Assembly (NCBI GenBank): GCA_903831085.1
Contig: CAIKWE010000060.1
Location: 62,001-126,000, forward strand
DNA length: 64,000 nt
Direction of reading: 5' to 3'
Source of the DNA: an uncultured Verrucomicrobiota bacterium
GTDB lineage: Bacteria; Verrucomicrobiota; Kiritimatiellia; Kiritimatiellales; Tichowtungiaceae
Shown here piece by piece: positions 6,499 through 59,626 of the stretch. The position numbers were made by a program, and so were the translations under genes. How positions within the stretch are numbered: the stretch's first letter is position 1; the number at the start of each line of letters is the position of its first letter. Under the pieces are notes generated by a model. That model worked only from the letters and a program-made list of their open reading frames with translations. It was not told the origin of the DNA and made no database searches.

Positions 6499-7032
6499 AT
6501 GAGTTCGTTATACAAAATAATTCCGTTCAATGTCCGACACGGGAACTGCGGCGGAAGCCTCGTTCAGTTTCAGGCCGGAGATGCCGAAGCGAATGCCCTG
6601 CCGTTTTCGATTGGCAAGGTGCTGGTGATGTCGGATATCCGCACGGACGATGTGCGCGGCAATCACGCCCACTATGAGACCGAGGAGATTCTCGTCGCTT
6701 TGACCGGCGGATGCACGGTGGATCTTGACGATGGATGCGGTACGCACGAAAGCGTGAGGCTTTCGGCCTTGCCGGAGGACGGCGGACAGAAGACGGAAGA
6801 CAGCGGTCGGTCGTCAGTCGTCAGTCATCAGTCCTCGGATATAAAAGAAGCCCTTCTTTTATATCCGCACATCTGGCGTGTGATGCGCGACTTTGAACCC
6901 GGAACCACACTGATGGTGATTGCTAACATCAGGTACGACGAAAAAGATTATATACGCGACCGCACCGAATTTGAGCGGGTTGCCAAGGATTGGAAGACTC
7001 TCGGCGGGAGTTCAGCGCTTAGCAAGGAGTAG
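6499..7032 (+). CDS. WxcM/FdtA-like sugar 3,4-ketoisomerase (cupin) with in-frame insertion
   Basis: 177 residues from ATG 6499 (MSSLYKIIPFN). The cupin core DVRGNHAHYETEEILVALTGGCTVDLDDG matches FdtA/QdtA-type dTDP-4-dehydro-6-deoxyglucose ketoisomerases, with the RGNHAH metal/substrate motif. The end, LLLYPHIWRVMRDFEPGTTL..ANIRYDEKDYIRD, is also typical. In between, residues ~94-117 are foreign: a run reading GQKTEDSGRSSVVSHQSS, plus part of a 30-bp hairpin. The family normally has a tight beta-hairpin there, so stability may suffer or the insertion may be looped out. In context it would isomerise the product of the dehydratase at 5179 before transamination. A one-mismatch TTCCAANNNTTGGAA copy is at 6981 (AKDWK). 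Confidence 0.8.
   Translation: MSSLYKIIPFNVRHGNCGGSLVQFQAGDAEANALPFSIGKVLVMSDIRTDDVRGNHAHYETEEILVALTGGCTVDLDDGCGTHESVRLSALPEDGGQKTEDSGRSSVVSHQSSDIKEALLLYPHIWRVMRDFEPGTTLMVIANIRYDEKDYIRDRTEFERVAKDWKTLGGSSALSKE
6777..6866. repeat. In-frame repeat insertion ending in a 30-bp hairpin
   Basis: 6777-6830 is built of GACGGAAGAC and GTCGTCAGTC-type words, partly mutually inverted. It is followed by a perfect hairpin: GGATATAAAAGAAG (6837-6850), loop CC, CTTCTTTTATATCC (6853-6866). All is translated in the cupin frame. Confidence 0.65.
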
Positions 7033-11305: not shown

Positions 11306-12412
11306 ATGCATGTTCCATTTTTAGATCTGAAGAACCAGCCGGCGGAACTTCGCAGTGAAATCCAGTCTGCGATGAATCAGGTGCTTGCTGAATGCAATTT
11401 TATTCTAGGCAAGCCTGTGGCGGAGTTTGAAGAGGCGTTTGCCGCTTATTGCGGGTGCAAATACGGAATCGGCGTGGCTTCCGGTCTGGATGCGCTGAAG
11501 CTGATTCTGCGGGCAATGGATACCGGCCCCGGCGATGAAGTTATTACGGTATCGCACACCTTCATTGCCACTGCTTTGGCCATTTCCTCCGTAGGCGCAA
11601 CGCCGGTTTTAGTCGAGGTGGATCCGGCCACGTATACCATGGATCCGGCGGCTTTTGAGGCGGCGATAACCGCGAGGACGAAAGCCGTCATGCCGGTGCA
11701 TCTTTACGGGCAGACTGCCGATATGGGTCCGATCCTCGAAATAGCCCGTCGGCATGGGCTCAAAGTGATCGAAGACGCCTGTCAGTCTCATGGCGCCCGC
11801 TGCAACGGCCACCGAGCCGGTTCGCTGGGCGACGCGGCGGCCTTCAGTTTTTATCCCGGCAAAAATCTGGGAGCCTACGGTGATGGCGGGGCGGTAACGA
11901 CGTCGGACGCGGTTCTCGCAGAGCGTATCCGGGCCATGCGCAATTACGGTTCCATTCGCAAATACTACCACGACACGCTGGGTGAAAATAGCCGGCTGGA
12001 TACCCTGCAGGCCGCTGTGCTGGGCGTGAAACTGAAAGTTCTCGATGCGGGAAATGCCGCCCGCCGCGCTGCCGCCGCACGCTACACCGCACAGCTCGCC
12101 GGGGTCGGCGATCTTATTACGCCCGCCGCCCGGAAAGGCTCTGAGCACGTTTTCCATCTCTATGTCATCCAAACCGGCCGCCGCGACGACCTCCAGCGCT
12201 ATTTGCTGGAGCAGGGCGTGGAGTGCCTGATCCATTATCCTGTGCCGGTGCATTTGCAGAAGGCTTATGCTTCCAATGATTGGAAAGCTGTAAATTTTTC
12301 GCTGACGGAAAAACTGGCGGGGCAAATCCTATCCCTGCCCATCTTCCCTGGAATCACCGAAGAGCAAATTAAGTATGTCTGTAATTCAATCAAAGCATTC
12401 TGCGGAAATTGA
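11306..12412 (+). CDS. DegT/DnrJ/EryC1/StrS sugar aminotransferase (FdtB/QdtB-like)
   Basis: 368 residues. PLP lysine is in [17 protein letters not shown] (~residue 187). VPFLDLKNQ at the N-terminus, [21 protein letters not shown] and [11 protein letters not shown] are family signatures. It transfers an amino group, usually from glutamate, to a keto sugar. With the dehydratase and the cupin isomerase it would give a 3-amino-3,6-dideoxyhexose. The palindrome at 12271 is read as SNDWK in the variable segment before the [16 protein letters not shown] helix. Gap 11107-11305 shows nothing except an A/T-rich stretch. Confidence 0.9.
12271..12285. repeat. Dispersed palindrome TTCCAA-TGA-TTGGAA
   Basis: Perfect copy inside the aminotransferase gene, read as S-N-D-W-K. 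Confidence 0.85.
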
Positions 12413-15733: not shown

Positions 15734-16878
15734 AAACCATTCTGATTTTCGAACCTCTTTCCGGCGGACACCGCGCCGGCTATATCCACTGGCTGGCGGA
15801 TTCCATCACGGATAATCCTCCGGCCGGCTGTCATTTCGTTTTTGTCACCGATCCCGGCGTGGATATTCCGGCGGCGGCACCGCTTTCTTATCACAAAATT
15901 TCTCCCGAACTGGCGGGGCAATTCAAGTCGGCCGGTCCGTCCAAACTGCGCGGGCTGTTGCGGAACCTTTTTGATGAGTGCGTGGCGCAGTATTCTCCCG
16001 ATCATGCGCTGATACTGGAGTTAACCCGGCTGGAACTCTCTTTTGCTCTGCGTGGTGCGCCGTGCCCGGTTTCGGCGATCCTGTTTGTTCAGTATCCGGA
16101 ATTGGCGCGAGGACTGAAGTTTTTTTTCAAGGATTGGAAAACCGCGCTGCTCCTGCGCCGCGCGCCGGTCAAAAATCTATTTCTGCTGAACGGAGAAGAA
16201 AGCTGCCGTTATCTGGCCGGCCGATTCGGTTCGCGCTCCCGTTTTATTCCGGTGCCGGATCCGGTGCCGGAAATCACGGCAGAGGCCGATTATTCACTTC
16301 GCCGGGAATATCGAATCAGCGACGGACAGACGGCGTTTCTTTTTTTCGGAGCCGTTTCCCCGCGTAAAGGGGCGGACGTGCTGATTGAAGTGTTACATCT
16401 GCTTCCCGCTGAAGCGGCGGCGAAAAGCGTCTTTCTTTTCTGTGGCGAACCGGAGCGTGGTTATCAGCAAGCTTTTGATCAGGCTGTCGCCCGTCTGCGT
16501 GCCGCCCGTTCAGACATCACACTGAACATTGAAGACCGCTTTGTGTCCGACCAACGTATGATGGCCCTGTTTGAACAGTCCGATGTGGTTTTGATGCCGT
16601 ACACCCGTCCGGAATATTCGAGCGGAATTCTGGCGCTGGCCGCCAAGGCGCGTACGCCTGTCATCGGCCCGGACTCCGGACTTCTTGGCAGGCTGATCCG
16701 GCAGAACGGGCTTGGCGCTGTTTGCTCCGTTCAGCCGGAAACGGTCGCGGAGAACATTGTGAGCGCGACGCAGAATCTTCCGGCTGTTGACGAAACGCGG
16801 CGTGGTGCTTTCGTGCAGAAGAGTCGCCCGGAACTTTTCGCCCGGATCATTTTGGATGCGGTTTGCAATGAACGCTGA
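15730..16878 (+). CDS. GT4-like glycosyltransferase
   Basis: 382 residues from an ATG overlapping the polymerase stop. N-terminal ILIFEPLSGGHRAGYIHWL; C-terminal Rossmann half starts LFFGAVSPRKGADVLIEVL, with MPYTRPEYSSGILALAAKA (nucleotide-sugar site) and GPDSGLLGRLI. It probably acts in repeat-unit assembly. A one-mismatch palindrome copy at 16125 gives FFKDWK in the hinge region. Confidence 0.82.
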   Translation: MKTILIFEPLSGGHRAGYIHWLADSITDNPPAGCHFVFVTDPGVDIPAAAPLSYHKISPELAGQFKSAGPSKLRGLLRNLFDECVAQYSPDHALILELTRLELSFALRGAPCPVSAILFVQYPELARGLKFFFKDWKTALLLRRAPVKNLFLLNGEESCRYLAGRFGSRSRFIPVPDPVPEITAEADYSLRREYRISDGQTAFLFFGAVSPRKGADVLIEVLHLLPAEAAAKSVFLFCGEPERGYQQAFDQAVARLRAARSDITLNIEDRFVSDQRMMALFEQSDVVLMPYTRPEYSSGILALAAKARTPVIGPDSGLLGRLIRQNGLGAVCSVQPETVAENIVSATQNLPAVDETRRGAFVQKSRPELFARIILDAVCNER

Positions 16879-17854
16879 AAAATATCATTCATCTTTGCGC
16901 CCGATCGGGGACGCCTGCCGCTTGGCGAAAACCGGCTGGGTCTGTCTGCCCAACCCACTGGTCGGGATTGGCGCGGAAGGCCGACTGCTGTGGAAAGGCT
17001 GCGTTTTGTTACGCCATGCGGCGTTAGTTATCCGGTGCTGGGCCTCTTGTTCTCATCCGCACATTCTGATCCGTGAGTTTTCGACAATACCCTTGCTGCT
17101 GACTTTCCCGTTTCTCTGGCCGCTTCGCCGCAAGCTGTTTTTCGTGATCAATCATAATCTGCAATGGGCAGCGCGCAACCGAGCGGAGCGTTTCGGAATG
17201 GCGGCATTGGCGCGGATGGGCGCCCGCTGGACAATTTTTGAAACCCAGGATTTCCGAGGGTTGGAAAAGCTGAAGATCCCTTCGCCGCGGAATTTGGTAT
17301 TGCCTCATCCGGTGCCGGAGAGAACCGCCGGAGAAAAAAACAGCGTACGGGCGGTAATTGGCGTGACAGGTTATTGTCGCCCCGAAAAAGGAATGGATGA
17401 GCTTCTCAATCTGCTCGTGCGGCATTTCCCGGATTGCGATATCGTGATCGGGGTGTCCGCGCCGGAAAAAATTAAAGGTCTTTCCGAAAAAGTCCGGATG
17501 GTGAACACCACATCGGATGCGGATTACCGCCGGATGCTGGCGCAGTGCGACGTTCTGGTGCAGAACGGCGCGCAGAACAGTTATTTTTACCGCGTCTCCG
17601 GTCCGGTTGCCGATGCCGCCGCCTCCGGTGCCGCCGTAGTCGTTCCGGATTTTCCGCTGTTGCGGCATCAGGTTTTTTCCCCGGTGCCGGTCGGCGAAGT
17701 TTTCCAAGGTTTGGAAAAAATTCCGGACGCGGTGCGCACCGCGATCGCGAAGGCTCGCTCCGGACAATATGATTTCGCTGTTTATTGCGCGGCCCGCACG
17801 GCACAGGCGGTCGCCGACCGGCTGGATGAGTCTAGCAGAGAGCAGCATGGATAA
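16868..17854 (+). CDS. Putative glycosyltransferase (GT-B fold)
   Basis: 328 residues; the start overlaps the previous stop by 11 bases. Similarity is weaker than for its neighbour, but FFVINHNLQWAARNR, VLPHPVPE, VIGVTGYCRPEKGMDELLNLL and NTTSDADYRRMLAQCDVLV follow the order of GT4-type enzymes; the typical E-x7-E region is degenerate (VSGPVADAAASGAAVVVPD). It carries two palindrome copies: one-mismatch at 17252 (FRGLEK) and perfect at 17702 (FQGLEK). Confidence 0.72.
   Translation: MNAEKYHSSLRPIGDACRLAKTGWVCLPNPLVGIGAEGRLLWKGCVLLRHAALVIRCWASCSHPHILIREFSTIPLLLTFPFLWPLRRKLFFVINHNLQWAARNRAERFGMAALARMGARWTIFETQDFRGLEKLKIPSPRNLVLPHPVPERTAGEKNSVRAVIGVTGYCRPEKGMDELLNLLVRHFPDCDIVIGVSAPEKIKGLSEKVRMVNTTSDADYRRMLAQCDVLVQNGAQNSYFYRVSGPVADAAASGAAVVVPDFPLLRHQVFSPVPVGEVFQGLEKIPDAVRTAIAKARSGQYDFAVYCAARTAQAVADRLDESSREQHG
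17702..17716. repeat. Dispersed palindrome TTCCAA-GGT-TTGGAA
   Basis: Perfect copy, TTTTCCAA-GGT-TTGGAAAA at 17700-17718, near the 3' end of the glycosyltransferase gene; read as FQGLEK. Confidence 0.85.
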
Positions 17855-20140: not shown

Positions 20141-21738
20141 ACAGCGGAAGCCGCACTTCATTGCAACGGACGCTGTGGCTTATGGCGATCCTGTTTGCGC
20201 TCACAGCCGGCTGGATGATCTTTTTTCAACCATTGGAAAAGGCTGTTGCTTTCACCGCGACAGATGACGGGCTTTATTACCCGCGTCTGGCTCAGAACAT
20301 CATAGCTCGTGGAATGTGCACCTATGATGGCGTAACGGTCACAAACGGATTTCATCCGTTGTGGCTGCTGTTGCTGTTGCCGGTTTATGGACTGATTCAT
20401 GATCCGTGGCTAGCACTACGCGGCGTTTATATGGTCATCCTTGTCGTGCAGTTTGCCTCGCTCGGACTGTTGGCTCTTATTGCTCGGCGCACGCGAATGA
20501 CGACAGCAGGTCTGGCGGTGGCGGTATTCGTCCTTTTTTTAAACATCCGCTCCTTCACCATATTTTTCAGTTTTCTGGAAAGTCCGCTGGTGCTCCTTAT
20601 GTTGCTGGGGTATCTCGTTTTCTGTCTTCACACGGGCGGCCAACGTTTTGAAAATCCAAAAATTGCTTTCATTACAGGGGCGCTGACCGGGCTCTGTTTT
20701 CTGGCGCGACTGGACTGTTTCCTTCTTCCGGTGGCGTACGGAACAGTGCTTTTGACCCATTTGTTGCGTCAGCGCAAACAATGGAAGCATTTTCTCCTTT
20801 CAGCCGGTTCATCTGCCGCCGGATGCCTGTTGCTGGCGGTTCCATATCTTACATGGAACTGGATAGCTTTCGGCCATCTGCAAACGGTGTCGGCCCTTCA
20901 GAAAACCGCATCTTTTTCCCCCGTCGCCAGCTGGAATATGATTTCGGGCTGGTGTCTGAGTCAGTTTATTCCTCGCGTACAGCATATTCTCGGCTTGCAG
21001 AATATTTCCCCGAAACTGCTTTTGGGTTGTCTGCTTCTGAGTGGACTGCTCGCGACCGTTTATCTGCTGACCGGCACACGTCGCCATCGGCTGGTTGAAA
21101 GGCTCGGGTTTTGCCCTGAATTCCCGCTGTTTGTTGGAATACATGCTCTGTTCATTGTGTTGGCCGCCCCGCAAGATGCGGCGGCTTCTGCCTGGTACTG
21201 GATCCCAGAAATTACCCTGATTGCATTGGCCGTCGGCGCGGCGCTTCCCGATATTCGTCGGGCAGGAATACCGGTTGTCCCAGCGCTGATTGCTCTGCTG
21301 GTCGGAATTCAGCTGTGGATTTATCCTGCATTGGTCCAGCGTAAAACGATGAGCTTCGCTAAGTTGGAAGTCGCCCGGTTTCTGCGCGAAAACACGGCGC
21401 CTGAAATTCGCTGCGCCATGTTCGATTCCGGTATCATTTCATACTTCAGTCAGCGCGATTTTTCCGGGTTGAACGGATTGATTGGAGATTTTGAGCACGC
21501 CGCACTTATGCGTGAAAAAAAATATGCCGATGCGCTGGAACGGTGCCGAGTTGGTCTACTGGTGCTTGACACACCTAGGGAGCGGATTCCAGAGCTGATT
21601 TCCAATGTGGTTTACAAAACAGTGATTGAAACAAAATTTGAGAATTTCAATGAACCGCCCAAACCATTTGTGGTCTATAAAGGAAGCCCGAAAGATCTGC
21701 AGCGGGTATGGGACGTTCGGTACGGCGGACGAAGGTAG
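20137..21738 (+). CDS. Polytopic membrane glycosyltransferase-like protein (GT-C, ArnT/PMT-like)
   Basis: 533 residues from a GTG that overlaps the previous stop (GTGA); a GTG at 20125 is also open. The first loop reads TATDDGLYYPRLAQNI, with the D-D pair typical of GT39/GT83-like enzymes, then NGFHPLWLLLLLPVY. About ten to twelve helices are followed by a periplasmic C-terminal domain (REKKYADALERCRVGLLVLD). It is related in plan to the preceding gene. A one-mismatch palindrome at 20224 (FFQPLEK) lies in the first membrane helix/loop boundary. Confidence 0.65.
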   Translation: MNSGSRTSLQRTLWLMAILFALTAGWMIFFQPLEKAVAFTATDDGLYYPRLAQNIIARGMCTYDGVTVTNGFHPLWLLLLLPVYGLIHDPWLALRGVYMVILVVQFASLGLLALIARRTRMTTAGLAVAVFVLFLNIRSFTIFFSFLESPLVLLMLLGYLVFCLHTGGQRFENPKIAFITGALTGLCFLARLDCFLLPVAYGTVLLTHLLRQRKQWKHFLLSAGSSAAGCLLLAVPYLTWNWIAFGHLQTVSALQKTASFSPVASWNMISGWCLSQFIPRVQHILGLQNISPKLLLGCLLLSGLLATVYLLTGTRRHRLVERLGFCPEFPLFVGIHALFIVLAAPQDAAASAWYWIPEITLIALAVGAALPDIRRAGIPVVPALIALLVGIQLWIYPALVQRKTMSFAKLEVARFLRENTAPEIRCAMFDSGIISYFSQRDFSGLNGLIGDFEHAALMREKKYADALERCRVGLLVLDTPRERIPELISNVVYKTVIETKFENFNEPPKPFVVYKGSPKDLQRVWDVRYGGRR

Positions 21739-25447: not shown

Positions 25448-26289
25448 AAAAACTGGCAGTCCTCGGACATCCCATCGGCCACACACTGTCGCCCGTCATG
25501 CACAACGCCTCCATCAAGGCGCTGGGGCTCATGGACGAGTATGAATACGGCAAACTCGATGTCCCGCCCGGCGAACTGATGGCGCGGCTCGCGAAGTTTC
25601 CGTCCGAAGGCTACGCCGGCGTCAACCTGACGATTCCTCTGAAGGAAGTCGCGTACCAAGGTCTAAAGCAACTGGCGGACAGTGCCCGGATTCTCGGCGC
25701 GGTCAACACCGTTGAATTCACCGGCGGCGGAATGGTTGGCCACAACACCGACGGCTACGGCTTTCTCAAAGCGCTCGAAGAAGCCTTTGGTAAAACCGTT
25801 CAGAGCGATTCCGTTTTCGTACTCGGTTGCGGCGGGGCAGGGCGTGCCGTCGCGCTCATGGCCGCGCTCAACGGCGCGAAGTCGCTGACGCTGGCCGATG
25901 TGGATGCCGCACGCGTTGCCAACCTGACGGCGGAAATCAAGAATGTCGCGCCGAAGGTCGGGATTTTCCAGTGCTTGGAAAAGACGGAACAAATCAAAGC
26001 CTGCCGCGAAGCCGATCTCGTCATTCAAGCCTCGCCGGTCGGTATGAAAAAAGAAGACCCCTCGCTTCTGCCGAAAGAGGCCTTTCGCCAAGGACAGCGC
26101 GTTTTTGATTTGATTTACATGTATCCCGAAACCGCCTTCCTCAGCACCGCCAAAGCCTGCGGCGCGCAGATTGCGAACGGCCTCGGCATGCTGTTGCATC
26201 AGGGCGCGAAAGCTTTCGAAATCTGGACGGGAATCAAACCAAGTGTTGAAGCGATGCGCAACGCATTGGAAAAGGCGGTATACTCATGA
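25444..26289 (+). CDS. aroE: Shikimate dehydrogenase
   Basis: 281 residues. LGHPIGHTLSPVMHN is the shikimate site and NLTIPLKE has the catalytic Lys; ILGAVNTVEF and GHNTDGYGF follow. VLGCGGAGRAVALMAA binds NADP. NGLGMLLHQGAKAFEIWTG closes the protein. It reduces 3-dehydroshikimate to shikimate with NADPH in aromatic amino acid synthesis. The start overlaps leuA (ATGA). A one-mismatch palindrome at 25966 (FQCLEK) lies in a variable region. Confidence 0.95.
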   Translation: MKKLAVLGHPIGHTLSPVMHNASIKALGLMDEYEYGKLDVPPGELMARLAKFPSEGYAGVNLTIPLKEVAYQGLKQLADSARILGAVNTVEFTGGGMVGHNTDGYGFLKALEEAFGKTVQSDSVFVLGCGGAGRAVALMAALNGAKSLTLADVDAARVANLTAEIKNVAPKVGIFQCLEKTEQIKACREADLVIQASPVGMKKEDPSLLPKEAFRQGQRVFDLIYMYPETAFLSTAKACGAQIANGLGMLLHQGAKAFEIWTGIKPSVEAMRNALEKAVYS

Positions 26290-27098: not shown

Positions 27099-27113
27099 TT
27101 CCAAGCCTTGGAA
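27099..27113. repeat. Dispersed palindrome TTCCAA-GCC-TTGGAA
   Basis: Perfect copy in the 53-base gap between the convergent pilD and D-aminoacylase genes. Confidence 0.85.
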
Positions 27114-32041: not shown

Positions 32042-35000
32042 ATGAACATGATTTTCAACGCATCGGCGGGGACGGGAAAGACCTGGCAGGTCACCGAACT
32101 CTATTCCGCGCTGGTGCTGGGCAAAGATCACGAACATCTGCCTGCCGGCCGTAAGCCCCTTCGACCGGGCTCAGGGCAGGCGGTCGATCCGCGCCGAATC
32201 CTGCTGATGACTTTTACCGATAATGCCGCCGCGGAACTGCGCGGGCAGGTTTCTAAAAAAATGCTCGCCGCCGAAAAGAATGGCGATGACGAAATCGGCG
32301 ACCTTGCCCGCCGTGTGCTGCGCTCGCTGCCCGCCGCGAACATTTCAACCATCCACGCCTTTTGCGCCGGACTGCTGCGCGAGCATGCGCTGGAACTCGG
32401 ACTCTCTCCGACTTTCCAAACCCTGGAAGACGAAGCTCGCGACGCATTGCTCGACGAAGTACTCAAGGCCGAAATTTTCCAATCCTTGGAAGAAGATTCT
32501 GACTTCCGCGAATTCTGCGCGGGCGTTTCGGTTCTAGGCGACCACGAATACAGTCTGATCAATACAGTTCGCTCTCTGCTCGAAAAAGCGGCCAGCCGCG
32601 GCCTCGACCTGAGTAACGCCGAAGCGATGCTTCCTCCAGCGGAACGTACGGTTTGTAAAGAAAGCTTCAAACGAATTCACGATGAACTGGCATCCTTCGA
32701 TCTGCCGAAAACCGCAGCTGATGCACTGGATACGTTGAATGCGTTGCTGGTGGCGGACTTTCCGGATCTAGCATTGATTAAGGCCTTGCCTAAATTCGGT
32801 CAGGCGAAAAAGGTGAAGCATCTATCCGATGAACTGGCAGAACTGAAAGAGCGGTTTTTGACGGAATATTTTTATGAGCAGAACATCAATCAGCTCCGCG
32901 CCTTCGCCCGTTGTCTGTCGGCCTGCGCACGCGGTTTTACCGAAGCCAAGCGGTCGCGCGACGCGGTGGATTTCGGCGACCAACTTCTGCTGGCTCGCGA
33001 TCTGCTCCGGAACGGAAATTTTACCGGACTGTTCGACTGGATCATTGTGGACGAAGTGCAGGACACCTCACGGGTGCAGTGCGATGTGATCGAAGCACTT
33101 TGGGGTCGAGACGCGCATCTGGTGATTTGCGGTGACCGTAAGCAGTCGATTTACGCATGGCGCAGTGCCGATCCGCAGGTGATGCCAGATCTGGAGTCGG
33201 CGATGGAGCAGCGAGGCGGAATCAAACGGATTGATCTGAAAACAAGCTTTCGCAGCAAAGACCGGATAATCACGGCGGTCAACGCGCTGTTCAGTGGAAT
33301 TTACGAGCGGTACGACGCGCTTAAACCGCAAGGTGTTCTTGCCGATGAAAAACCGTGCGTCGAGTTTTTGATGCAGGACGGTGACGAGAGCACGACCGAA
33401 GACGAAATGTCGGCAGTGGCAAGCCGCATTCGGTTGCTGGTCGACGGCGGTGCGGAATGGCGTCCAAAGTTTGGATATAATGAGCAAACGAAACGGTTCG
33501 CCGCTGACGAGCCGTTCAAGTACGGCGACATCCTGATTTTGCTGAAACGCTCGACGCATCAGTCGGTGCTGGAAAAAGCACTGCGTGATGCGGGTATTCC
33601 CTATACCAGCGGCGGCAAGGGCAGTGCGCTCTTCGAACAGCAGGAAGTGCGCGACCTGCTTTTGTTCCTGCAGGTGCTTTGCGAGCCGACGAACGATCTG
33701 GCTCTGGTTGGCTTTTTGCGCTCGCCGTTCGCCAATATGCCGGACGATGAAATTGTGAAGCTTGGCTGGGACGGCGAAAAATTTGATCACGAGATATTGC
33801 GGAAACAGTTTTTTAAAGGCAGCTCCGAAGCGGCAGAACGACTTTTGCGTTACCGCAGTCAGACCGGCGAAAAGCTGCCGTCGCAGCTGGTGCGCGAAAT
33901 GGTGCGCGAGACAGCGTTTGACTCGCAACTGGCCGGACAGCCGGGCGGCGAACAGCGGCTGGCTAATTTTAAGAAAGCGCTCGACTGGATTCGCACCGCC
34001 GAGCGCGGCGGGCAGGTTCTTCTGCCGGATGTGGTGCGGCTGTTTGAAAAATATATCCAGACACCGCCGCGCAGCGGGGCCGCCGAAGCGATGCTACCCG
34101 ATCTGGAGCAGAATGCGGTGATGCTGATGACGGTACACAGTGCGAAGGGGCTGACGAAACGGGTCTGCTTTGTGCCGGACATCAGTTTTGGCGGAAACAC
34201 CGAACCGGGCTTCGCGATGTTTTCTCCGGAAGGCCGTCTGGAGATGAAAATTTCCGGACTGGCGGGTGACGAGGTGAAGTCGCCGGGCTGGGACGCGGCG
34301 CGCGAGGCGGATAAAGCAGTATGCGAGCTTGAGATGACGAATGTTTTTTATGTGGCGATGACCCGCGCCCGCGATCTGGTCGTTCTTTCCGGCGCGGGAA
34401 CGAAAGATCCGAAAGGCTGGCTGAAGCAGGCGGAAGTTTTCCTAAGCAACGCTTCTCCCGAAGTATTGTGCCGCAAGGTTTTTTCAGACCTGCCGCAAGT
34501 AGACGAAGGCTTGAGTCCTGAGGCTGTAGGCTTGAGGGGGAAATTTGAATATGAATCGTTGCAAATTCCAAAAGGATTTGAACGCAGAACCGTGACGAGT
34601 CTGGTTGAAAACCTCAAACCTCAAACCTCAAACCTCAAGCCTACGAACGACCGGCGGTCGTTCGGTTCTCTCGGTCACGCAGTTCTCGAAGAGCTGGCGA
34701 AGAACGGGTGGGTTGGGGACATCTCGAAGCTGGTGGAGCTGTTCGGCGATGAATTCGGCAAAGTCGAAACGAAGCCCCTGATTAGACAGCTTGAAGCGGC
34801 TCGCGAAGCTTTGCGCAAAGAGACGGCGGGCGCGACGGCGCTATTTACGGAACATCCGTTTGTGCTGAAGCGCGGCGAGGTGATTCTCGACGGGACGATT
34901 GATCTACTGGCCGGGTTTTCCAAGCATTGGAAAATTCTGGACTATAAATTCACGAACGAGTCGCCGGAGACGGCGCGGGAAACCTATGCGCCGCAGCTTG

Positions 35001-35101
35001 AGGCGTATCGTGAGGCGGCTCAGAAGCTTTATCTCGATGCGGAAGTCTCCGCGGCGCTGGTGCTGATCGGCGAGTCAGTCCGGCTCGTTCCAGTGGTTTG
35101 A
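32042..35101 (+). CDS. UvrD/AddA-like helicase-nuclease (exodeoxyribonuclease V beta type)
   Basis: 1019 residues. Walker A is FNASAGTGKTWQ (residues 4-15). MTFTDNAAAELRGQV (motif Ia), WIIVDEVQDTSRVQ (II), GDRKQSIYAWRSAD (III), LKTSFRSKDRI (IV), MTVHSAKGLTKRVCFVPD (V) and FYVAMTRARDLVVLSG (VI) are all present. The C-terminal RecB-type nuclease has VILDGTIDLL and ILDYKF, giving D-(x)n-D-x-K. It should unwind and process DNA ends for recombination repair. No addB is adjacent. The gene holds three palindromes (32414, 32477, 34918), a hairpin insertion (32140-32181) and heptamer repeats (34612-34642), all in frame. Confidence 0.9.
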   Translation: MNMIFNASAGTGKTWQVTELYSALVLGKDHEHLPAGRKPLRPGSGQAVDPRRILLMTFTDNAAAELRGQVSKKMLAAEKNGDDEIGDLARRVLRSLPAANISTIHAFCAGLLREHALELGLSPTFQTLEDEARDALLDEVLKAEIFQSLEEDSDFREFCAGVSVLGDHEYSLINTVRSLLEKAASRGLDLSNAEAMLPPAERTVCKESFKRIHDELASFDLPKTAADALDTLNALLVADFPDLALIKALPKFGQAKKVKHLSDELAELKERFLTEYFYEQNINQLRAFARCLSACARGFTEAKRSRDAVDFGDQLLLARDLLRNGNFTGLFDWIIVDEVQDTSRVQCDVIEALWGRDAHLVICGDRKQSIYAWRSADPQVMPDLESAMEQRGGIKRIDLKTSFRSKDRIITAVNALFSGIYERYDALKPQGVLADEKPCVEFLMQDGDESTTEDEMSAVASRIRLLVDGGAEWRPKFGYNEQTKRFAADEPFKYGDILILLKRSTHQSVLEKALRDAGIPYTSGGKGSALFEQQEVRDLLLFLQVLCEPTNDLALVGFLRSPFANMPDDEIVKLGWDGEKFDHEILRKQFFKGSSEAAERLLRYRSQTGEKLPSQLVREMVRETAFDSQLAGQPGGEQRLANFKKALDWIRTAERGGQVLLPDVVRLFEKYIQTPPRSGAAEAMLPDLEQNAVMLMTVHSAKGLTKRVCFVPDISFGGNTEPGFAMFSPEGRLEMKISGLAGDEVKSPGWDAAREADKAVCELEMTNVFYVAMTRARDLVVLSGAGTKDPKGWLKQAEVFLSNASPEVLCRKVFSDLPQVDEGLSPEAVGLRGKFEYESLQIPKGFERRTVTSLVENLKPQTSNLKPTNDRRSFGSLGHAVLEELAKNGWVGDISKLVELFGDEFGKVETKPLIRQLEAAREALRKETAGATALFTEHPFVLKRGEVILDGTIDLLAGFSKHWKILDYKFTNESPETARETYAPQLEAYREAAQKLYLDAEVSAALVLIGESVRLVPVV
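32140..32181. repeat. In-frame hairpin insertion in the helicase gene
   Basis: GCCTGCC (32140-32146) pairs with GGCAGGC (32175-32181); inside, GCCC (32155) pairs with GGGC (32167) around CTTCGACC. It encodes AGRKPLRPGSGQA, inserted between motif I and MTFTDNAAAEL. The wording CCTTCGACC-GGGCTCAGGGC recalls a short element (TTCGACAGGCTCA) also seen at the rluD start. Confidence 0.55.
32477..32491. repeat. Dispersed palindrome TTCCAA-TCC-TTGGAA
   Basis: Perfect copy in the helicase gene, read as FQSLE; a one-mismatch copy (32414, FQTLE) lies exactly 63 bases upstream, in the same frame. Confidence 0.85.
34612..34642. repeat. Heptamer tandem repeat CCTCAAA in the helicase gene
   Basis: CCTCAAA three times, then CCTCAAG and CCT. 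Its last ten bases CCTCAAGCCT are inverted at 34528-34537 (AGGCTTGAGG). Encodes NLKPQTSNLKP between helicase and nuclease domains. Confidence 0.75.
34918..34932. repeat. Dispersed palindrome TTCCAA-GCA-TTGGAA
   Basis: Perfect copy, 19 bp with flanks (34916-34934). Encodes FSKHWK between the two catalytic parts of the RecB-type nuclease. Confidence 0.85.
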
Positions 35102-39492: not shown

Positions 39493-40626
39493 ATGCAGGC
39501 AGTCAAACCACAACCCATGAAAACAGCCGGACTTCAAAGGGCAATCCGAATGCGCCTTTTGCCGTGGTTTAGGGAAAATCGCCGTGATTTACCATGGCGG
39601 CGCAACCGCACGCCGTACCGCGTCTGGGTCGCCGAGATCATGCTCCAGCAGACCCGTGTTGATTCGGTCATCCCTTACTACCGCCGCTGGATAAAAACCT
39701 TTCCGTCGTGGAAAGCGCTGGCCCGCGCTCCGCAAAGTGATGTGCTGAAATGCTGGGAAGGTCTCGGCTATTATTCCCGCGCCCGCAACCTGCACGCCGC
39801 CGCCAAAAGCATCTGCGATGCATTTCATGGCCGCGCGCCGGATACGGCGGCGGAGCTGCGGAGCATGCCGGGAGTCGGGCCGTACACGGCGGCGGCGATC
39901 GCCAGTCTGGCCTTTAATGAAGACGCGGCGGTAGTTGACGGTAACGTGATTCGCGTCCTGAGCCGTCTGTTCGCTTTCGGCGGCGACACGAAGTCGGCGG
40001 CAGGCAAAAAAAAGATGCAGGCGTGGGCCGACGAACTGCTGGTGAAAGGGCTTGCCGGAGAATTTAATGAAGCCATGATGGAACTTGGCGCGCTGGTCTG
40101 TTTGCCGAAAAACCCGAAATGCGGGGAGTGTCCGTTGCAAAACGTCTGTGCCGCCTTGGCAAAAGGTTCGCCTGCAAAGTTTCCCGTCATGGAGAAAAAG
40201 GCGAAAGTGCCGCATATTACTGTCGGCGCGGCGGTGACGATGAACCGCAAGGGCGAAGTGCTCATCGCCCAGCGCAAACAGGACGACATGCTCGGCGGGC
40301 TCTGGGAATTTCCCGGCGGCAAGCAGGAGCCGGGCGAGACCATCGAGGAGTGCATCGTCCGGGAACTTGACGAGGAGCTTGGAATTAAAACCATTGTCGG
40401 CGAACATGTTATGACAGTTAATCATGCCTACAGCCACTTCACCATGACCATGCATGTACACCGTGCCCAGATCGTTTTGGGGCGTCCACGACCGATTCAT
40501 TGCGCCGACTATGCATGGGTAAAAGTTCCGAACCTTGGAAAATACGCCTATTCCAAAGCCGACCTACAGGTGGTTGCCCAGTTGCAGAGTCGGTCGGCTG
40601 GGTTAAAAAAACGGAAAAAAGGTTGA
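39493..40626 (+). CDS. mutY: A/G-specific adenine glycosylase
   Basis: 377 residues; ATG 39517 is an alternative start. RRDLPWRRNRTPYRVWVAEIMLQQT is the N-terminal signature. The HhH-GPD region has MPGVGPYTAAAIASLAF and the catalytic Asp in AAVVDGNVIRVLSR. The iron-sulphur ligands are C-x6-C-x2-C-x5-C (CLPKNPKCGECPLQNVC). The C-terminal NUDIX-like domain (GGLWEFPGGKQEPGET) recognises 8-oxoG. It removes A opposite 8-oxoG. A one-mismatch palindrome is at 40526. Confidence 0.95.
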   Translation: MQAVKPQPMKTAGLQRAIRMRLLPWFRENRRDLPWRRNRTPYRVWVAEIMLQQTRVDSVIPYYRRWIKTFPSWKALARAPQSDVLKCWEGLGYYSRARNLHAAAKSICDAFHGRAPDTAAELRSMPGVGPYTAAAIASLAFNEDAAVVDGNVIRVLSRLFAFGGDTKSAAGKKKMQAWADELLVKGLAGEFNEAMMELGALVCLPKNPKCGECPLQNVCAALAKGSPAKFPVMEKKAKVPHITVGAAVTMNRKGEVLIAQRKQDDMLGGLWEFPGGKQEPGETIEECIVRELDEELGIKTIVGEHVMTVNHAYSHFTMTMHVHRAQIVLGRPRPIHCADYAWVKVPNLGKYAYSKADLQVVAQLQSRSAGLKKRKKG

Positions 40627-43460: not shown

Positions 43461-43475
43461 TTCCAAACATTGGAA
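43461..43475. repeat. Dispersed palindrome TTCCAA-ACA-TTGGAA
   Basis: Perfect copy filling the 19-base gap between the convergent yraN and AsmA-like genes. Confidence 0.85.
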
Positions 43476-43476
43476 C

Positions 43477-45912
43477 TTATTTTGGCAGGTTGACGAAGTG
43501 CCATTCGGGCTTATCGAGCGGTCCCTCAAGCCGGAATTCCAGCAGCCGCAGGAAGGGCGCGGTGGCGGTGGCGGCCAGACGCTGGAGTTGATACCATTCT
43601 TTCATCTGCTCGCCGGTCTGGCGCAGCGGCTCGGCCGCGACGACAAAGTTGAGGCCTTTTCCGGGCGAATAGTTTCCACGGCCGCGGGTGCTGATGAGGG
43701 TGCCGCCGAGTTGCGCGTTATCGCTCCAGATCGCGCCGTCGTGCAGTTCGTAGTCGGCGGAGAAAGCGGTGAGGGAGAACAGGTTGAAACCGGGGAAGGC
43801 GGACTGAATCAGCCGTGAAAAACCGCCGAAGAGCGGTACGTCGGCCAGACGTCCGGTTTCGATTTTGGCCTGTCCTTTGCCTCGTACAGATTTCCAGAAG
43901 CCAGCCAGGGCATCGGCTGTGAGGTCAACCGAAGCGGAGAACTTTCCGCGTGTACGGTTATAGCCGCCGCCGGCAACCTGTCCAAGCAACTGCTCCAGAT
44001 CTATCTGGCCGATGCGGGCATTGATGCGGTAGGGGGCGGAGCCGTCCTCGAGAAAGATGTCGAATTCGGCGGAGCCCTCGGCCCGCCCGCTGTAGAGATC
44101 TATGGTGGAATTGGTGAAGGCAAGTTGTGCGCCCCGCCCTTGGATGTCGGAATAGAAGGCGGAGGCCTGTATCTTGCCCATGCTGATGTTTGTTGCGCTG
44201 AAGGTTCCTCTGAAATTGTGATTGGTCCACGTGCCGTAATCAAGCTGTCCGCTACCGACGACCAGAACCGGGCCATTGAAGCGGAATTCTTCGATGATGA
44301 TGTGCTCGTCCGGCGCGAGTGCGCGGGCAACGTCGGCGGGCGGGAAGGTGTTGGTGGCGTTGAAGAAGGCAAGGCTGCGGATAAAGTCCACCTGTACGCT
44401 GCCGTCGAACCGCACGCCATCGCGGGTTGCGGTTACCGGAGTCAGATCCAAGAACTGGTTGGAGTAGACCATGAAAGTTTCGAGATGTCCTATCGGCACG
44501 CCGCCGCAGGTGAAGCGGTCGGCGGAGAGTGTGCCGCTGATGACGACCGATTCGTCGGGGTTGGATTGCGAGATGGCCAGGTCGGCTTTCAGCTGTTCAT
44601 TTGGAAATTTGAAGCGAAGGATGAAATCTCGGAGATCTTCGTCATAAGCGCCGGCAATAGTAGGATCACATTGCGCCTGTATCCGGGCTTTCCAGGCCTT
44701 GGAACCGAGATCTAATTCTAAGCTGCCGGTGAGCGGGCCGCCGTTGGCGCGTGTCACAAGGTCTTTTACTGTAACCGAATTGCCGTCGCGCACGAGACGG
44801 AAGGCGAGCGGGTCGAGCGTGATGTCTTGGCGTTTGATGTGCGCCTGCTGAACCTGCACGGCGACTTTTTCGGTCAATTGGTCGTACGGTGCAGGACCAG
44901 CCGAGGCGGTGAAGTCGAACCGGCCGTAGGGTTTGACTCCGGTCTGCGCGACGGCGGACTGAGCGTCTTCGGGCAGCAGGTTGAACAGGTCGACGGCGGA
45001 AAGGGTGTTTTCGACGGACACCTGCGCGTTGCTGTTTTGGAGATTGATTGCGCCGCGCAGGACGAGCTGCTCGCGATCAGACTGGCTTAAATGTAAAGCG
45101 GAGAGATTCCATGTGTTGTCGAGGCAGCCCAGTGTGCCAGAGAGATTCTTGTAAACGCGGTTGTTCCAGCTGATTCCTTTCGCCGACAGCTCCGCATTCA
45201 GAGACATCTCTTCGGGCCGGGCGTCATTGAAATTAAAGATAAGGCTGAGATCCGGCGGCCGTTCGCACTTTAACCGGCTCAGCGCGTCCGCCACTTTGGC
45301 GGCACGGCGGCTGAAATCGCCAATCGGCTGCGCTGCGCTTTTTTCGGAGAAGATGGCGGTTCCTCGCGCGAGGATGTCGATGCCTCCCCAGGACAGCTTG
45401 GCGTTTTCAACTACGAACCGTCCGGGTGCGACGGTCAGTGATGCCTCCAGCTTTTTGACGCTGCGAAACGGATGGTCGTCCGGGAGTACGCTTTCCCACG
45501 GACGGCCCAGAGAGACACCGAGATTTTTAACATAAATTTTGATGTGCCAGCCGTCTTTGGCTGGTTTTTTCCAATCGACCGGCCAGAGCATAACATACAG
45601 TTTTTTTGTGCTTAAGAGCGGTTGCAGGTCGTCGGGTGAGGTGCTGTAGAGCCGGATGTTACTGAGTACCCAGCCGTGATGTATCGAAAGCCGGATGGAT
45701 TGAACCTGTAACGGAATGCCCGCCTCCTGCACCTGCGCCGTAATGCGGCGTGTCAGGCTGGGCGGCAACCCGATGACCAGCAGTGCGAAAAGCGCCAGTA
45801 GAGCGGAAAGCCCCAGCGTGAATCCCATCAGGCCGAGGATATGCCGCCAGCGTGTTCCCGAACGGCCTGTGCGCGGGTCAGGGCTGTTTGATTTCTTCAA
45901 CTTGTTTTTCAA
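43477..45912 (-). CDS. AsmA/TamB-like large envelope protein
   Basis: 811 residues. One N-terminal membrane helix (~29-50), then long beta-rich periplasmic repeats (VQSIRLSIHHGWVLSNIRLYS, VVENAKLSWGGIDILARGTAIF, NFRGTFSATNISMGKI). A C-terminal AsmA-type end has GKFSASVDLTADALAGFWKSVRGKGQAKIETG. Such bridge-like proteins are tied to phospholipid transport to the outer membrane. Its start overlaps the upstream DUF4340 gene by 35 bases. A one-mismatch palindrome at 44690 is read as SKAWK. Confidence 0.75.
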   Translation of the reverse strand: MKNKLKKSNSPDPRTGRSGTRWRHILGLMGFTLGLSALLALFALLVIGLPPSLTRRITAQVQEAGIPLQVQSIRLSIHHGWVLSNIRLYSTSPDDLQPLLSTKKLYVMLWPVDWKKPAKDGWHIKIYVKNLGVSLGRPWESVLPDDHPFRSVKKLEASLTVAPGRFVVENAKLSWGGIDILARGTAIFSEKSAAQPIGDFSRRAAKVADALSRLKCERPPDLSLIFNFNDARPEEMSLNAELSAKGISWNNRVYKNLSGTLGCLDNTWNLSALHLSQSDREQLVLRGAINLQNSNAQVSVENTLSAVDLFNLLPEDAQSAVAQTGVKPYGRFDFTASAGPAPYDQLTEKVAVQVQQAHIKRQDITLDPLAFRLVRDGNSVTVKDLVTRANGGPLTGSLELDLGSKAWKARIQAQCDPTIAGAYDEDLRDFILRFKFPNEQLKADLAISQSNPDESVVISGTLSADRFTCGGVPIGHLETFMVYSNQFLDLTPVTATRDGVRFDGSVQVDFIRSLAFFNATNTFPPADVARALAPDEHIIIEEFRFNGPVLVVGSGQLDYGTWTNHNFRGTFSATNISMGKIQASAFYSDIQGRGAQLAFTNSTIDLYSGRAEGSAEFDIFLEDGSAPYRINARIGQIDLEQLLGQVAGGGYNRTRGKFSASVDLTADALAGFWKSVRGKGQAKIETGRLADVPLFGGFSRLIQSAFPGFNLFSLTAFSADYELHDGAIWSDNAQLGGTLISTRGRGNYSPGKGLNFVVAAEPLRQTGEQMKEWYQLQRLAATATAPFLRLLEFRLEGPLDKPEWHFVNLPK

Positions 45913-49850: not shown

Positions 49851-50797
49851 CGTTTTGCCTCCGTTACGGCGTCGTCGCGGGTGATGGCCACAAAAATATC
49901 TTCAAGCGAGCGGCTTTCCAGATGCAACTCGCGGAGTTTCCAGCCCTTGGAAACCGCGCATTCAAAAACCATTGTGCGGATATCCGGCGCGGACGAATCA
50001 ATCCGGTAACGGTTCCAGCCGTTATCGAGCGGTTCGTGTGACACCACATCCACGGTGCCGAGGCTCTTCAGCGTCGCTTCAATCACGCTGGGATCGCCCG
50101 CGATTTCGGCGCTGATCAGCACGTCGCCTTCCAGCCGTTTCTGCAGACTTTCCGGCGAGTCCGACGCCACGATCTTGCCTTTGTTGATAATCAGAATCCG
50201 GCGGCAGGTCATTTCGACCTCCGGCAGAATATGGGTCGAAAGGAGCAACGTGTGGCGTTCGGCCAGCTGGCGGATCAGTTCGCGCACTTCGCGGATCTGA
50301 TTGGGATCAAGCCCTGAGGTCGGCTCGTCGAGAATCAGCAGATCGGGATCGTGAAGCAGACTGTCAGCCAGACCGACGCGCTGACGGTAGCCTTTGGAAA
50401 GCTGGCCGATGATCCGGGGTCCGACGTCAGTCAGCCCGCACTGCTCTTTCACGATATCGCGCCGCCCGCGGATGGCCTTGCGCGCCACGCCTTTGATTTG
50501 TGCGCGGAATTTCAGATATTCGTCCACCCGCATTTCGTGGTAGAGCGGACAGCTCTCCGGCATGTAGCCGATGTGGCGGCGCGCCTCAATCGGATCTTCA
50601 AACACATCGCAACCGGCGATTTCTACGGCACCGCGCGTCGGGTGCAGGAATCCGGTCAGCATCCGCATCGTCGTGGTTTTCCCCGCACCGTTCGGGCCGA
50701 GGAAGCCGACGATTTCACCGCGTCCGACCTCAAACGACACGTCGTCGACCGCTGTATGGCCCGCAAACTGTTTTGTCAGGTTAGAAACCTTAATCAT
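49847..50797 (-). CDS. ABC transporter ATP-binding protein (GldA-like)
   Basis: 316 residues. Walker A FLGPNGAGKTTTMRML, signature LSKGYRQRVGLADSLLHDP, Walker B LLILDEPTSGLDP, His loop LLLSTHILPE. The C-terminal ~90 residues are an extra domain. First gene of the five-gene minus-strand operon that ends with the AsmA-like gene. A one-mismatch palindrome at 49938 is read as SKGWK. Confidence 0.92.
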   Translation of the reverse strand: MIKVSNLTKQFAGHTAVDDVSFEVGRGEIVGFLGPNGAGKTTTMRMLTGFLHPTRGAVEIAGCDVFEDPIEARRHIGYMPESCPLYHEMRVDEYLKFRAQIKGVARKAIRGRRDIVKEQCGLTDVGPRIIGQLSKGYRQRVGLADSLLHDPDLLILDEPTSGLDPNQIREVRELIRQLAERHTLLLSTHILPEVEMTCRRILIINKGKIVASDSPESLQKRLEGDVLISAEIAGDPSVIEATLKSLGTVDVVSHEPLDNGWNRYRIDSSAPDIRTMVFECAVSKGWKLRELHLESRSLEDIFVAITRDDAVTEAKR

Positions 50798-50886
50798 AAA
50801 AAAATCCGGAATGGTGGAATAACCGTTGCATTATCTATGAGAAGCCCGCGCAGTCAAGCCGCGTAACCGTTTCCAATGGCTGGAAA

Positions 50887-55235: not shown

Positions 55236-56030
55236 TTAAACTTTTTTTGCCGGCGGTTCTTTGCCGAGTCTGGCGAGGACAGCTTTAAGGTCGGCCCACG
55301 ATTCACCTTTATGAGAGGGAGAACGCAATAGAAAGGAAGGGTGGTAAGTCGGCATGAGGTCGATGCCTTCGTATTTGCACCATGTTCCGCGGAATTTGGT
55401 GATGGCGACATCTTCCTGAAGCAATCCCTGTACGGCGGTTTTGCCGAGCGCGACGATGATTTTCGGTTTGATGAGCGCAATCTGCGCTTTGAGGTACGGA
55501 ATGCAGGCGTTCATCTCTTCCGGAAGCGGTACGCGGTTGCCTGGTGGACGGCATTTGACAATGTTGGCGATGAAAACGTCTTCGCGTTTATAACCCATCG
55601 CTTCGATCATTTTGTCGAGCAGCTGGCCCGCCGCGCCGACGAACGGACGGCCTTGAATATCTTCATCCGCGCCGGGCCCTTCGCCGACGAACATGATGTC
55701 GGGCCGGTTCGGGTTGCCTTCGCCGGGAACGGTGTTTTTACGTGATGCCTGGAGAGGGCAGGCGGAACAGACGCGCACCTGTCCGGCGATTGCTTCGAGC
55801 GTTTTACCGGTGACACGAACACTGCTTTGCGGCGTTTGTGCGGCCGACGGAGCGGAGCGGGGCGCGGAAGACCGTACAACGGGTTTCTGTGCGGGTGCCG
55901 GTTTCTGTGCCGGTGCGGGTTTTAGCGCGGCCAGCGTTTCCGACGAAACTTCCAAGGTTTGGAAGCCTTCCTCTTTTTTGTATTCGAGGAAGTCCTGGAG
56001 ATTGCTGACAAACTGTTTGATATCCGCCAT
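55236..56030 (-). CDS. Uracil-DNA glycosylase, family 4 (iron-sulphur)
   Basis: 264 residues. Catalytic region FVGEGPGADEDIQGRPFVGAAGQLLD; the four Cys ligands are in CSACP, NIVKCRPPGNR and FRGTWCKY. YHPSFLLR near the end is motif 2 (H). Residues ~1-85 are a variable N-terminal extension with KPAPAQKPAPAQKP and the palindrome-encoded FQTLE. It removes uracil from DNA. Confidence 0.93.
   Translation of the reverse strand: MADIKQFVSNLQDFLEYKKEEGFQTLEVSSETLAALKPAPAQKPAPAQKPVVRSSAPRSAPSAAQTPQSSVRVTGKTLEAIAGQVRVCSACPLQASRKNTVPGEGNPNRPDIMFVGEGPGADEDIQGRPFVGAAGQLLDKMIEAMGYKREDVFIANIVKCRPPGNRVPLPEEMNACIPYLKAQIALIKPKIIVALGKTAVQGLLQEDVAITKFRGTWCKYEGIDLMPTYHPSFLLRSPSHKGESWADLKAVLARLGKEPPAKKV
55950..55964. 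repeat. Dispersed palindrome TTCCAA-GGT-TTGGAA
   Basis: Perfect copy in the variable N-terminal region of the uracil-DNA glycosylase gene, read as FQTLE on the minus strand. Confidence 0.85.
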
Positions 56031-57037: not shown

Positions 57038-57052
57038 TTCCAAGGGTTGGAA
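57038..57052. repeat. Dispersed palindrome TTCCAA-GGG-TTGGAA
   Basis: Perfect copy in the 218-base divergent region between rluD and trpB. A TTGACA that might be a -35 box lies 35 bases downstream (57087-57092). Nothing else stands out in this gap. Confidence 0.85.
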
Positions 57053-59611: not shown

Positions 59612-59626
59612 TTCCAATGATTGGAA
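59612..59626. repeat. Dispersed palindrome TTCCAA-TGA-TTGGAA
   Basis: Perfect copy in the gap between the barrel gene and the convergent Fic gene. Confidence 0.85.

Follow-up and report, generated by a model that had tools for sequence, protein, structure and literature searches.

A chromosome-wide, helically phased palindrome in Kiritimatiellia and its peptide footprint in a helicase-nuclease and other proteins

The peptide footprint that a short palindrome leaves in the genes of this bacterium is one part of a larger pattern. The consensus, TTCCAA-NSN-TTGGAA, is a dyad of 15 letters with 12 fixed bases, lengthened by weaker T/A flanks. It is highly enriched in the genome, marks proteins with a recognisable set of peptides, is spaced at whole turns of the DNA helix, is conserved among related genomes, is restricted to one bacterial class and occurs in some lineages with altered half-sites. 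We consider it probable that these palindromes are cooperative sites, on the same face of the helix, for a lineage-specific dimeric DNA-binding protein that organises the chromosome or regulates it globally. The original prediction described the footprint in a 64-kb stretch of DNA, here called the window, and considered insertion or conversion of the palindrome, with selection against damage, to be plausible. The observation is confirmed and its interpretation partly supported: to judge from sequence alignments, selection at the DNA level appears right and insertion wrong.

The palindrome emerged from an unbiased count of inverted repeats in the window, where TTCCAA-N3-TTGGAA is the commonest inverted-repeat word, with 10 exact copies and 28 sites with at most two mismatches. 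The source genome (G000; 2.14 Mb in 60 contigs) holds 379 exact copies, against one of the reversed pattern. A sample of 426,292 bases of this genome, made up of the window and 19 other stretches, contains 70 exact copies, compared with one of the reversed pattern and none of a palindrome shuffled from the same letters. The 70 sites form a perfect dyad, and 97% of them have G or C as the centre base. Neither this motif nor a chromosome-wide palindrome in Kiritimatiellia is described in the open-licence full texts searched.

Every peptide originally listed as palindrome-coded is present in the window. The frame 0 peptides are FQCLE (exact palindrome at 291-305; one mismatch in shikimate dehydrogenase, 25966-25980), FQGLE (exact, 17702-17716), FQTLE (exact, in uracil-DNA glycosylase, 55950-55964), FQPLE (one mismatch, 20224-20238), FRGLE (one mismatch, 17252-17266) and FQSLE, which lies with another FQTLE in the helicase gene discussed below; FQTME is coded by a one-mismatch site at 1164-1178. 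The second set comprises SNDWK (in ASNDWK, exact, 12271-12285), SKHWK (in the same helicase), SKAWK (in GSKAWK, one mismatch, 44690-44704), SKGWK (in VSKGWK of an ABC ATPase, one mismatch, 49938-49952) and KDWK (in VAKDWK, 6981-6995, and FFKDWK, 16125-16139, each with one mismatch). The third frame, with the general form F-P-x-x-G-K, is represented by PNLGK, part of VPNLGK in a MutY-like glycosylase (one mismatch, frame 1, 40526-40540). Two exact copies have convergent genes on either side (27099-27113 and 43461-43475), two are intergenic, between divergent (57038-57052) and convergent genes (59612-59626), and a further intergenic copy has one mismatch (50871-50885). Three DNA-repair genes of the window carry footprints: RecB-like (32042-35101), MutY-like (39550-40626) and uracil-DNA glycosylase (55236-56030).

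The proposed search for enrichment was made over the 426-kb sample, in 367 genes (129,091 amino acids) called with a home-made script. FQxLE occurs 40 times, compared with 1.2 expected from residue frequencies, and the reversed ELxQF not at all; FQxLEK occurs 21 times (0.1 expected), and S[NK]xWK 14 times (0.5 expected; reversed, none). The spelling of the 40 FQxLE peptides is telling: 21 are exact palindromes, where codon usage (CAA 0.24, TTG 0.12) predicts 0.39, while 18 have one mismatch and one has two. The related genome G010 has 43 FQxLE and 19 S[NK]xWK in its sample. This excess of exact spellings, together with the retention of sites in motif-rich relatives, bears out the claim that the footprint is imposed at the level of DNA.

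The helicase-nuclease gene (32042-35101, forward strand) carries three sites. It encodes a UvrD/RecB-like helicase with a C-terminal PD-(D/E)XK nuclease (Pfam PF00580, PF13361 and PF12705), and its best NCBIfam match, TIGR02785 (addA), falls under the cut-off of that model. The first site, TTCCAAACCCTGGAA at 32414-32428, has one mismatch and codes for FQTLE in frame 0; the second, at 32477-32491, is exact and codes for FQSLE, also in frame 0. They lie 63 bp apart, as had been noted, a distance that corresponds to six helical turns and is also a multiple of three. The third, at 34918-34932, is an exact palindrome with TTTT/AAAA flanks, read in frame 2 as FSKHWK. Its codon 959 lies within the PF12705 nuclease domain (residues 865-1007), on a hairpin that links the D and DYK motifs, with DLLAG and ILDY on either side, as originally described. 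A 12-bp inverted repeat, GTAGGCTTGAGG / CCTCAAGCCTAC, is also found in this gene, at 34526-34537 and 34633-34644 of the window, and encloses AAACCTC tandem units (34610-34639).

Is the motif or the protein the source of these peptides? For the two FQxLE copies, F-[QK]-x-[LM]-E is found at both positions in all 11 aligned homologues, with varying codons. The palindrome at 32414 is exact in four of these homologues, has one mismatch in seven and is three off in none; that at 32477 is exact in five, has one mismatch in three and is three off in three. Since homologues retain the peptide with other codons, both copies are partly older than the motif, and this is the very result that was named at the outset as one that would refute a footprint set by the motif: the protein supplied a near-match at these positions, which demand on the DNA then refined. 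For FSKHWK no such result is obtained. FS[NK]xWK occurs in just four of 13 homologues, each at most one mismatch from the motif, and the hairpin contains a gap in four of the 13; this copy thus seems mostly to follow the motif.

In the wider alignment with homologues, likewise proposed at the outset, coding sites were compared with their orthologues elsewhere in the genus, 566 times in all. A gap falls at or beside the footprint in 64 of them (0.113), compared with 0.087 of 11,320 background windows, and orthologue identity is 0.709 for footprints (n=502) against 0.715 for background. Footprints are thus in-place substitutions with no clear excess of gaps; insertion is not borne out as their origin, and, as footprints do not shun conserved residues, the idea that sites lie in loops where homologues vary fails as a general rule. 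Because there is no excess of gaps, we take sites to be gained and lost in place by base changes, and short-tract conversion may also give rise to them. The same results make it scarcely credible that the palindrome is a short element of REP or MITE type that moves or copies itself into genes and spacers. Such an element would be repetitive and patchy in number among relatives, as the palindrome is, but the absence of a clear gap excess, the in-place substitutions at aligned sites, the mostly unrelated sequences between neighbouring sites and the phasing rule described below all contradict it.

Orthologues without the motif (at least three mismatches) retain at least 80% of the peptide in just 22 of 179 comparisons. 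Coding sites differ from the query 12-mer by no more than one base in 64% of cases from the source genome to G010 (22 sites; background, taken from random windows in the same alignments, 15%) and in 67% from G010 to the source genome (18 sites; background 20%). Among motif-rich genomes the figure is 63% (259 comparisons) and from rich to poor genomes of the genus 28% (167 comparisons), each with a background of 17%; these two sets are non-independent, with many comparisons from the helicase locus, and the 22 and 18 sites shared with G010 come nearer to independence. Selection on the DNA is supported by these alignments as the likely force that holds coding sites.

The spacing between sites is as strict as the sites themselves. 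Neighbours lie 21/22, 31/32, 41/42, 52/53, 63, 73, 83/84, 94/95, 104-106 or 113/114 bp apart, with 31/32 bp the chief class, and the 63-bp spacing in the helicase is one instance of this general rule of whole helical turns. For spacings of 16-125 bp, counted as phased when they deviate by at most 1.5 bp from a multiple of 10.5 and compared with 20,000 random draws, 31 of 39 are phased in the 426-kb sample (12.4 expected), 69 of 76 in G010 with the helicase stretch excluded (24.2 expected), 22 of 22 in G048 and 23 of 23 in G125; in no tested set did any of the 20,000 draws equal the observed value. Phasing is also seen when both sites lie in coding sequence (23 of 25 in the sample, 35 of 37 in G010) and after removal of the 31/32 class (17 of 25 and 39 of 46). 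Weaker sites near exact ones obey it too, with an in-phase rate of 0.0080 compared with 0.0002. In related genomes, arrays reach six or seven sites. Their spacers have a mean identity of 0.415 (58 pairs), against 0.302 for random spacers; since they are mostly unrelated, the phased spacing seldom reflects duplication of a unit. As 31 cannot be divided by three, a phased array within one gene cycles through the reading frames, as in FPMFGE...SKDLKK...FQSLEK on contig C1 (64654-65958).

Sites with at most one mismatch, in the samples of the source genome and G010, have a density per kb of 0.25 in genes, 1.06 in divergent, 1.23 in tandem and 2.27 in convergent spacers, and 42 of the 70 exact sites of the 426-kb sample are intragenic, as are over half of all sites, these coding and intergenic figures being approximate with home-made gene calls. 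There is no promoter bias, and sites are in excess within 15 bp of stop codons (26, with 13.5 expected). The peak between convergent genes and the excess at stop codons would both suit an RNA hairpin that acts in transcript stability or termination, the more so as every transcript of a site would contain two complementary arms separated by a 3-base loop. Pairing, however, leaves no trace in the way sites vary. Complementary symmetric double changes make up 25 of 209 two-mismatch sites (12.0%), compared with 13.4% if the arms are independent, and in genes A5>G, which leaves a G-U pair, is as frequent as T9>C, which breaks the pair (14 of each). A hairpin is unlikely because such double changes are not enriched. 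The phasing extends inside genes, a T run precedes the stem and an A run follows it, opposite to the order in an intrinsic terminator, and the window gives no Rfam match; we therefore regard a role as RNA as very improbable.

Along the complete 3.88-Mb chromosome of G010, 42 sampled stretches reveal no trend between origin and terminus, and sites occur all round. A distribution that excludes the terminus, like those of Noc and SlmA, was considered and set aside, since an apparent gap at 3.4-3.8 Mb vanished with denser sampling; at 3.30-3.38 Mb, where the GC skew flips sign, there are 10 and 7 sites per 20 kb. In the source genome, GC-rich REP-like inverted repeats ending CTACA/TGTAG lie at about 7061-7470 of L019 (contig C3, 87061-87470), interspersed with palindromes; the 1.4 kb around them contain five sites and no called gene. 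The non-coding, site-rich part of contig C3 was considered as a replication origin, a reading that was rejected, as no cluster of DnaA boxes is found there.

Low-count stretches of G010 are mostly low in G+C or, in gene content examined for three of them, enriched in genes for sulfatases, secreted proteins and transposases; L200, L334 and L340, nearly devoid of the palindrome, carry sulfatases, secreted proteins or transposases. We take these stretches for recent acquisitions, and the motif may mark long-resident DNA. Foreign DNA would look like this if the palindrome were a self-marking sequence, an uptake or self-recognition signal in transformation or defence, with tagged DNA preferentially kept or taken up; the scatter of sites through genic and intergenic DNA, and an 18,851-bp viral record with seven exact sites, most in phased groups, can be read in the same way. 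To our knowledge, however, no uptake sequence is palindromic, such sequences being orientation-specific tags, whereas the site here is a perfect dyad. Nor would an uptake tag be expected to show helical phasing from one site to another, arrays of several sites or weak sites in phase, and we judge this reading unlikely.

The motif is abundant in some lineages, while f11, f25, f31, G098 and G053 belong to the class but show no excess of it. Among 146 genomes, the source genome and its relatives, 64 carry at least 20 exact copies, with a maximum of 3,044 in G125; all 14 genomes of the genus carry 62-793 copies, a density range of more than tenfold. Of 387 genomes drawn from the phylum, 256 do not belong to the class, and these hold 0-5 copies. 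The motif is thus confined to one class, Kiritimatiellia going by record titles. Records with paired sites are labelled, among the matches listed, as Kiritimatiellae, Lentisphaerae, Spartobacteria and Verrucomicrobia metagenome-assembled genomes, and in one case Firmicutes. The viral contig mentioned above (IMGVR_UViG_3300035698_006241; L220, L221) has most of its seven exact palindromes phased at 31 bp, at a density that resembles chromosomes of the class. Another, IMGVR_UViG_3300018422_000008 (L223), holds six copies of TTCCAAASTTTGGAA at irregular spacings of 60, 42, 36, 42 and 45 bp, unlike the phased arrays, and this is probably an unrelated iteron-like repeat.

Some relatives spell the half-site differently. 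In family f19, TTCCAA sites are almost absent and TTCCGA-N3-TCGGAA occurs in 12-364 copies in nine of ten genomes, where the control gives 0 or 1; the remaining one, G142, has two. In three sampled stretches of G100 the TTCCGA sites are paired at 31 or 32 bp. TTCCAY-NSN-RTGGAA is found in G113 and G065, in groups at 31/32 bp and in G113 also at 22, and TTCCAT-NSN-ATGGAA in G067, in groups at 31/32 bp with some at 16. G065 and G077 belong to one genus and have 1 and 110 TTCCAA sites, respectively. Even two or three TTCCAA sites, as in G098 and G056, can still pair at 31 or 32 bp. The generic pattern TTCC-N3-S-N3-GGAA, compared with its reversed control, is unsafe alone, with several-fold ratios also outside the class, and variants were accepted only where the words were inspected (G113, G067, G065 and partly G054). 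In G053 (L353-L358) a repeat of about 65 bp with the core GCACCC-N3-GGGTGC and flanking T and A runs, present in eight copies and one with a single mismatch in 120 kb, has the appearance of a REP element or a terminator.

What reads these sites? We infer a protein dimer as the reader, cooperative binding and an architectural role. Each half-site TTCCAA would be read by one subunit of a homodimer, and dimers on neighbouring sites, aligned along one side of the helix, would bind cooperatively, with a preference for a distance of three turns. Because there are hundreds to thousands of sites, mostly intragenic and with neither promoter nor ori/ter bias, chromosome organisation or very global regulation seems the likeliest function, and the binder would resemble a nucleoid-associated protein whose recognition site is unusually long and strict. 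Such sites would come and go through base changes in place, and selection on the DNA would retain a site where the protein tolerates F-Q-x-L-E, F-S-N/K-x-W-K or F-P-x-x-G-K, giving rise to the footprint. Half-sites that differ between clades (TTCCGA, TTCCAY, TTCCAT) while the spacing is unchanged would be expected of a protein that reshapes its sites as it changes. The more than tenfold range of density in one genus is unusual for a core nucleoid protein and counts against this explanation. A bolder version is a real possibility, which we offer tentatively: that the strict dyads, at whole turns through coding and non-coding DNA, form a lattice for a polymerising or bridging chromosome protein, that selection on this lattice reshapes proteins in three frames, and that the half-sites are re-spelled in each lineage (TTCCAA, TTCCGA, TTCCAY, TTCCAT) as the specificity of the protein shifts, once within a genus (G065 compared with G077).

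Could the reader be a protein already known for such layouts? Lrp-family targets are described as clusters of imperfect sites with centres two or three helical turns apart (passages of PMC2995911), and 15-bp semipalindromic sites of Lrp type exist, with AT-rich centres (passages of PMC10201364). The palindromes might then be operators of a conserved Lrp/AsnC-family regulator, expanded in some lineages, with TTCCAANSNTTGGAA as the site bound and a multimer spanning sites two or three turns apart. Each of the 14 genomes of the genus has one PF01037 gene. It is present in 60 of the 64 genomes with at least 20 sites, the four without it (G027, G032, G041 and G042) being 59-89% complete; ten f3 genomes that lack a PF01037 match all have 0 or 1 site; and four motif-rich genomes (G000, G010, G011 and G125) have sites with no more than one mismatch in the 200 bp upstream of it. 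Overall, 124 of the 146 genomes have a PF01037 match, and these include genomes without an excess of the motif, such as G051, G053 and G098. The recognition helix diverges by 0.414, compared with 0.153 elsewhere in the protein, in 95 pairs of relatives of the same motif class, G087 and G144 being placed with G113 by count and kinship alone. An AT-rich centre would be expected, whereas the centre here is G or C in nearly all exact sites, and 61 of 66 lrp loci have no site (at most two mismatches) in the 200 bp upstream. Since genomes that lack the motif also have the gene, and since the recognition helix differs between members of one motif class, contrary to what would be expected of a conserved reader, we do not name Lrp/AsnC as the binder; phylogenetic profile, recognition-helix alignment and upstream sites fail to support it, and the operator reading is quite unlikely. 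An autoregulated regulator beside the arrays was likewise rejected, as the genes adjacent to arrays include no recurring single regulator, and a crude motif filter for helix-turn-helix proteins gave no usable candidate.

If the proposal of a dimeric chromosome protein is correct, this would be a rare clean case in which an architectural demand on DNA can be read in hundreds of proteins, and selection on a non-coding function within genes would become measurable. The half-site variants would provide natural replicates of a switch in DNA-binding specificity over hundreds of sites, and bait DNA would give a direct handle on a chromosome protein of a little-studied bacterial class, from which strains of Kiritimatiella and Pontiella have been cultured (PMC7356697).

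Finally, how does the palindrome compare with known systems? HIP1 of cyanobacteria (GCGATCGC), an 8-mer tied to orphan methyltransferases, is also a short palindrome that occurs chromosome-wide, genes included, far above chance, and other palindromes substitute for it in some genomes, according to passages of PMC4390886. The palindrome described here differs from HIP1 in its 12 fixed bases in 15, its phasing and arrays, its peptide footprint in three frames and its occurrence in another phylum. A target of 12 bases would be unusual for a methyltransferase. The Fis-type sites of Escherichia coli are numerous odd palindromes of 15 bp that form helix-phased groups at some promoters, but they are degenerate and AT-centred, whereas the palindrome here is strict and G/C-centred. 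The nucleoid-occlusion sites of Noc (NBS) and SlmA (SBS) are likewise palindromes spread across the chromosome, the outer half of the Noc site being TTTCC/GGAAA. They contrast with the present sites, which are far more numerous, have a 3-base centre between 6-base half-sites and are not depleted at the skew-defined terminus of G010. A change of specificity in ParB/Noc is described in PMC7383237. Lrp/AsnC operator clusters, whose dyads of about 15 bp recur on one face at intervals of two or three turns (PMC2995911 and PMC10201364), differ from the palindromes in that the latter have a strict, long consensus, a G/C centre and chromosome-wide numbers; Lrp/AsnC proteins are nevertheless the best architectural analogy for the arrangement of these sites.
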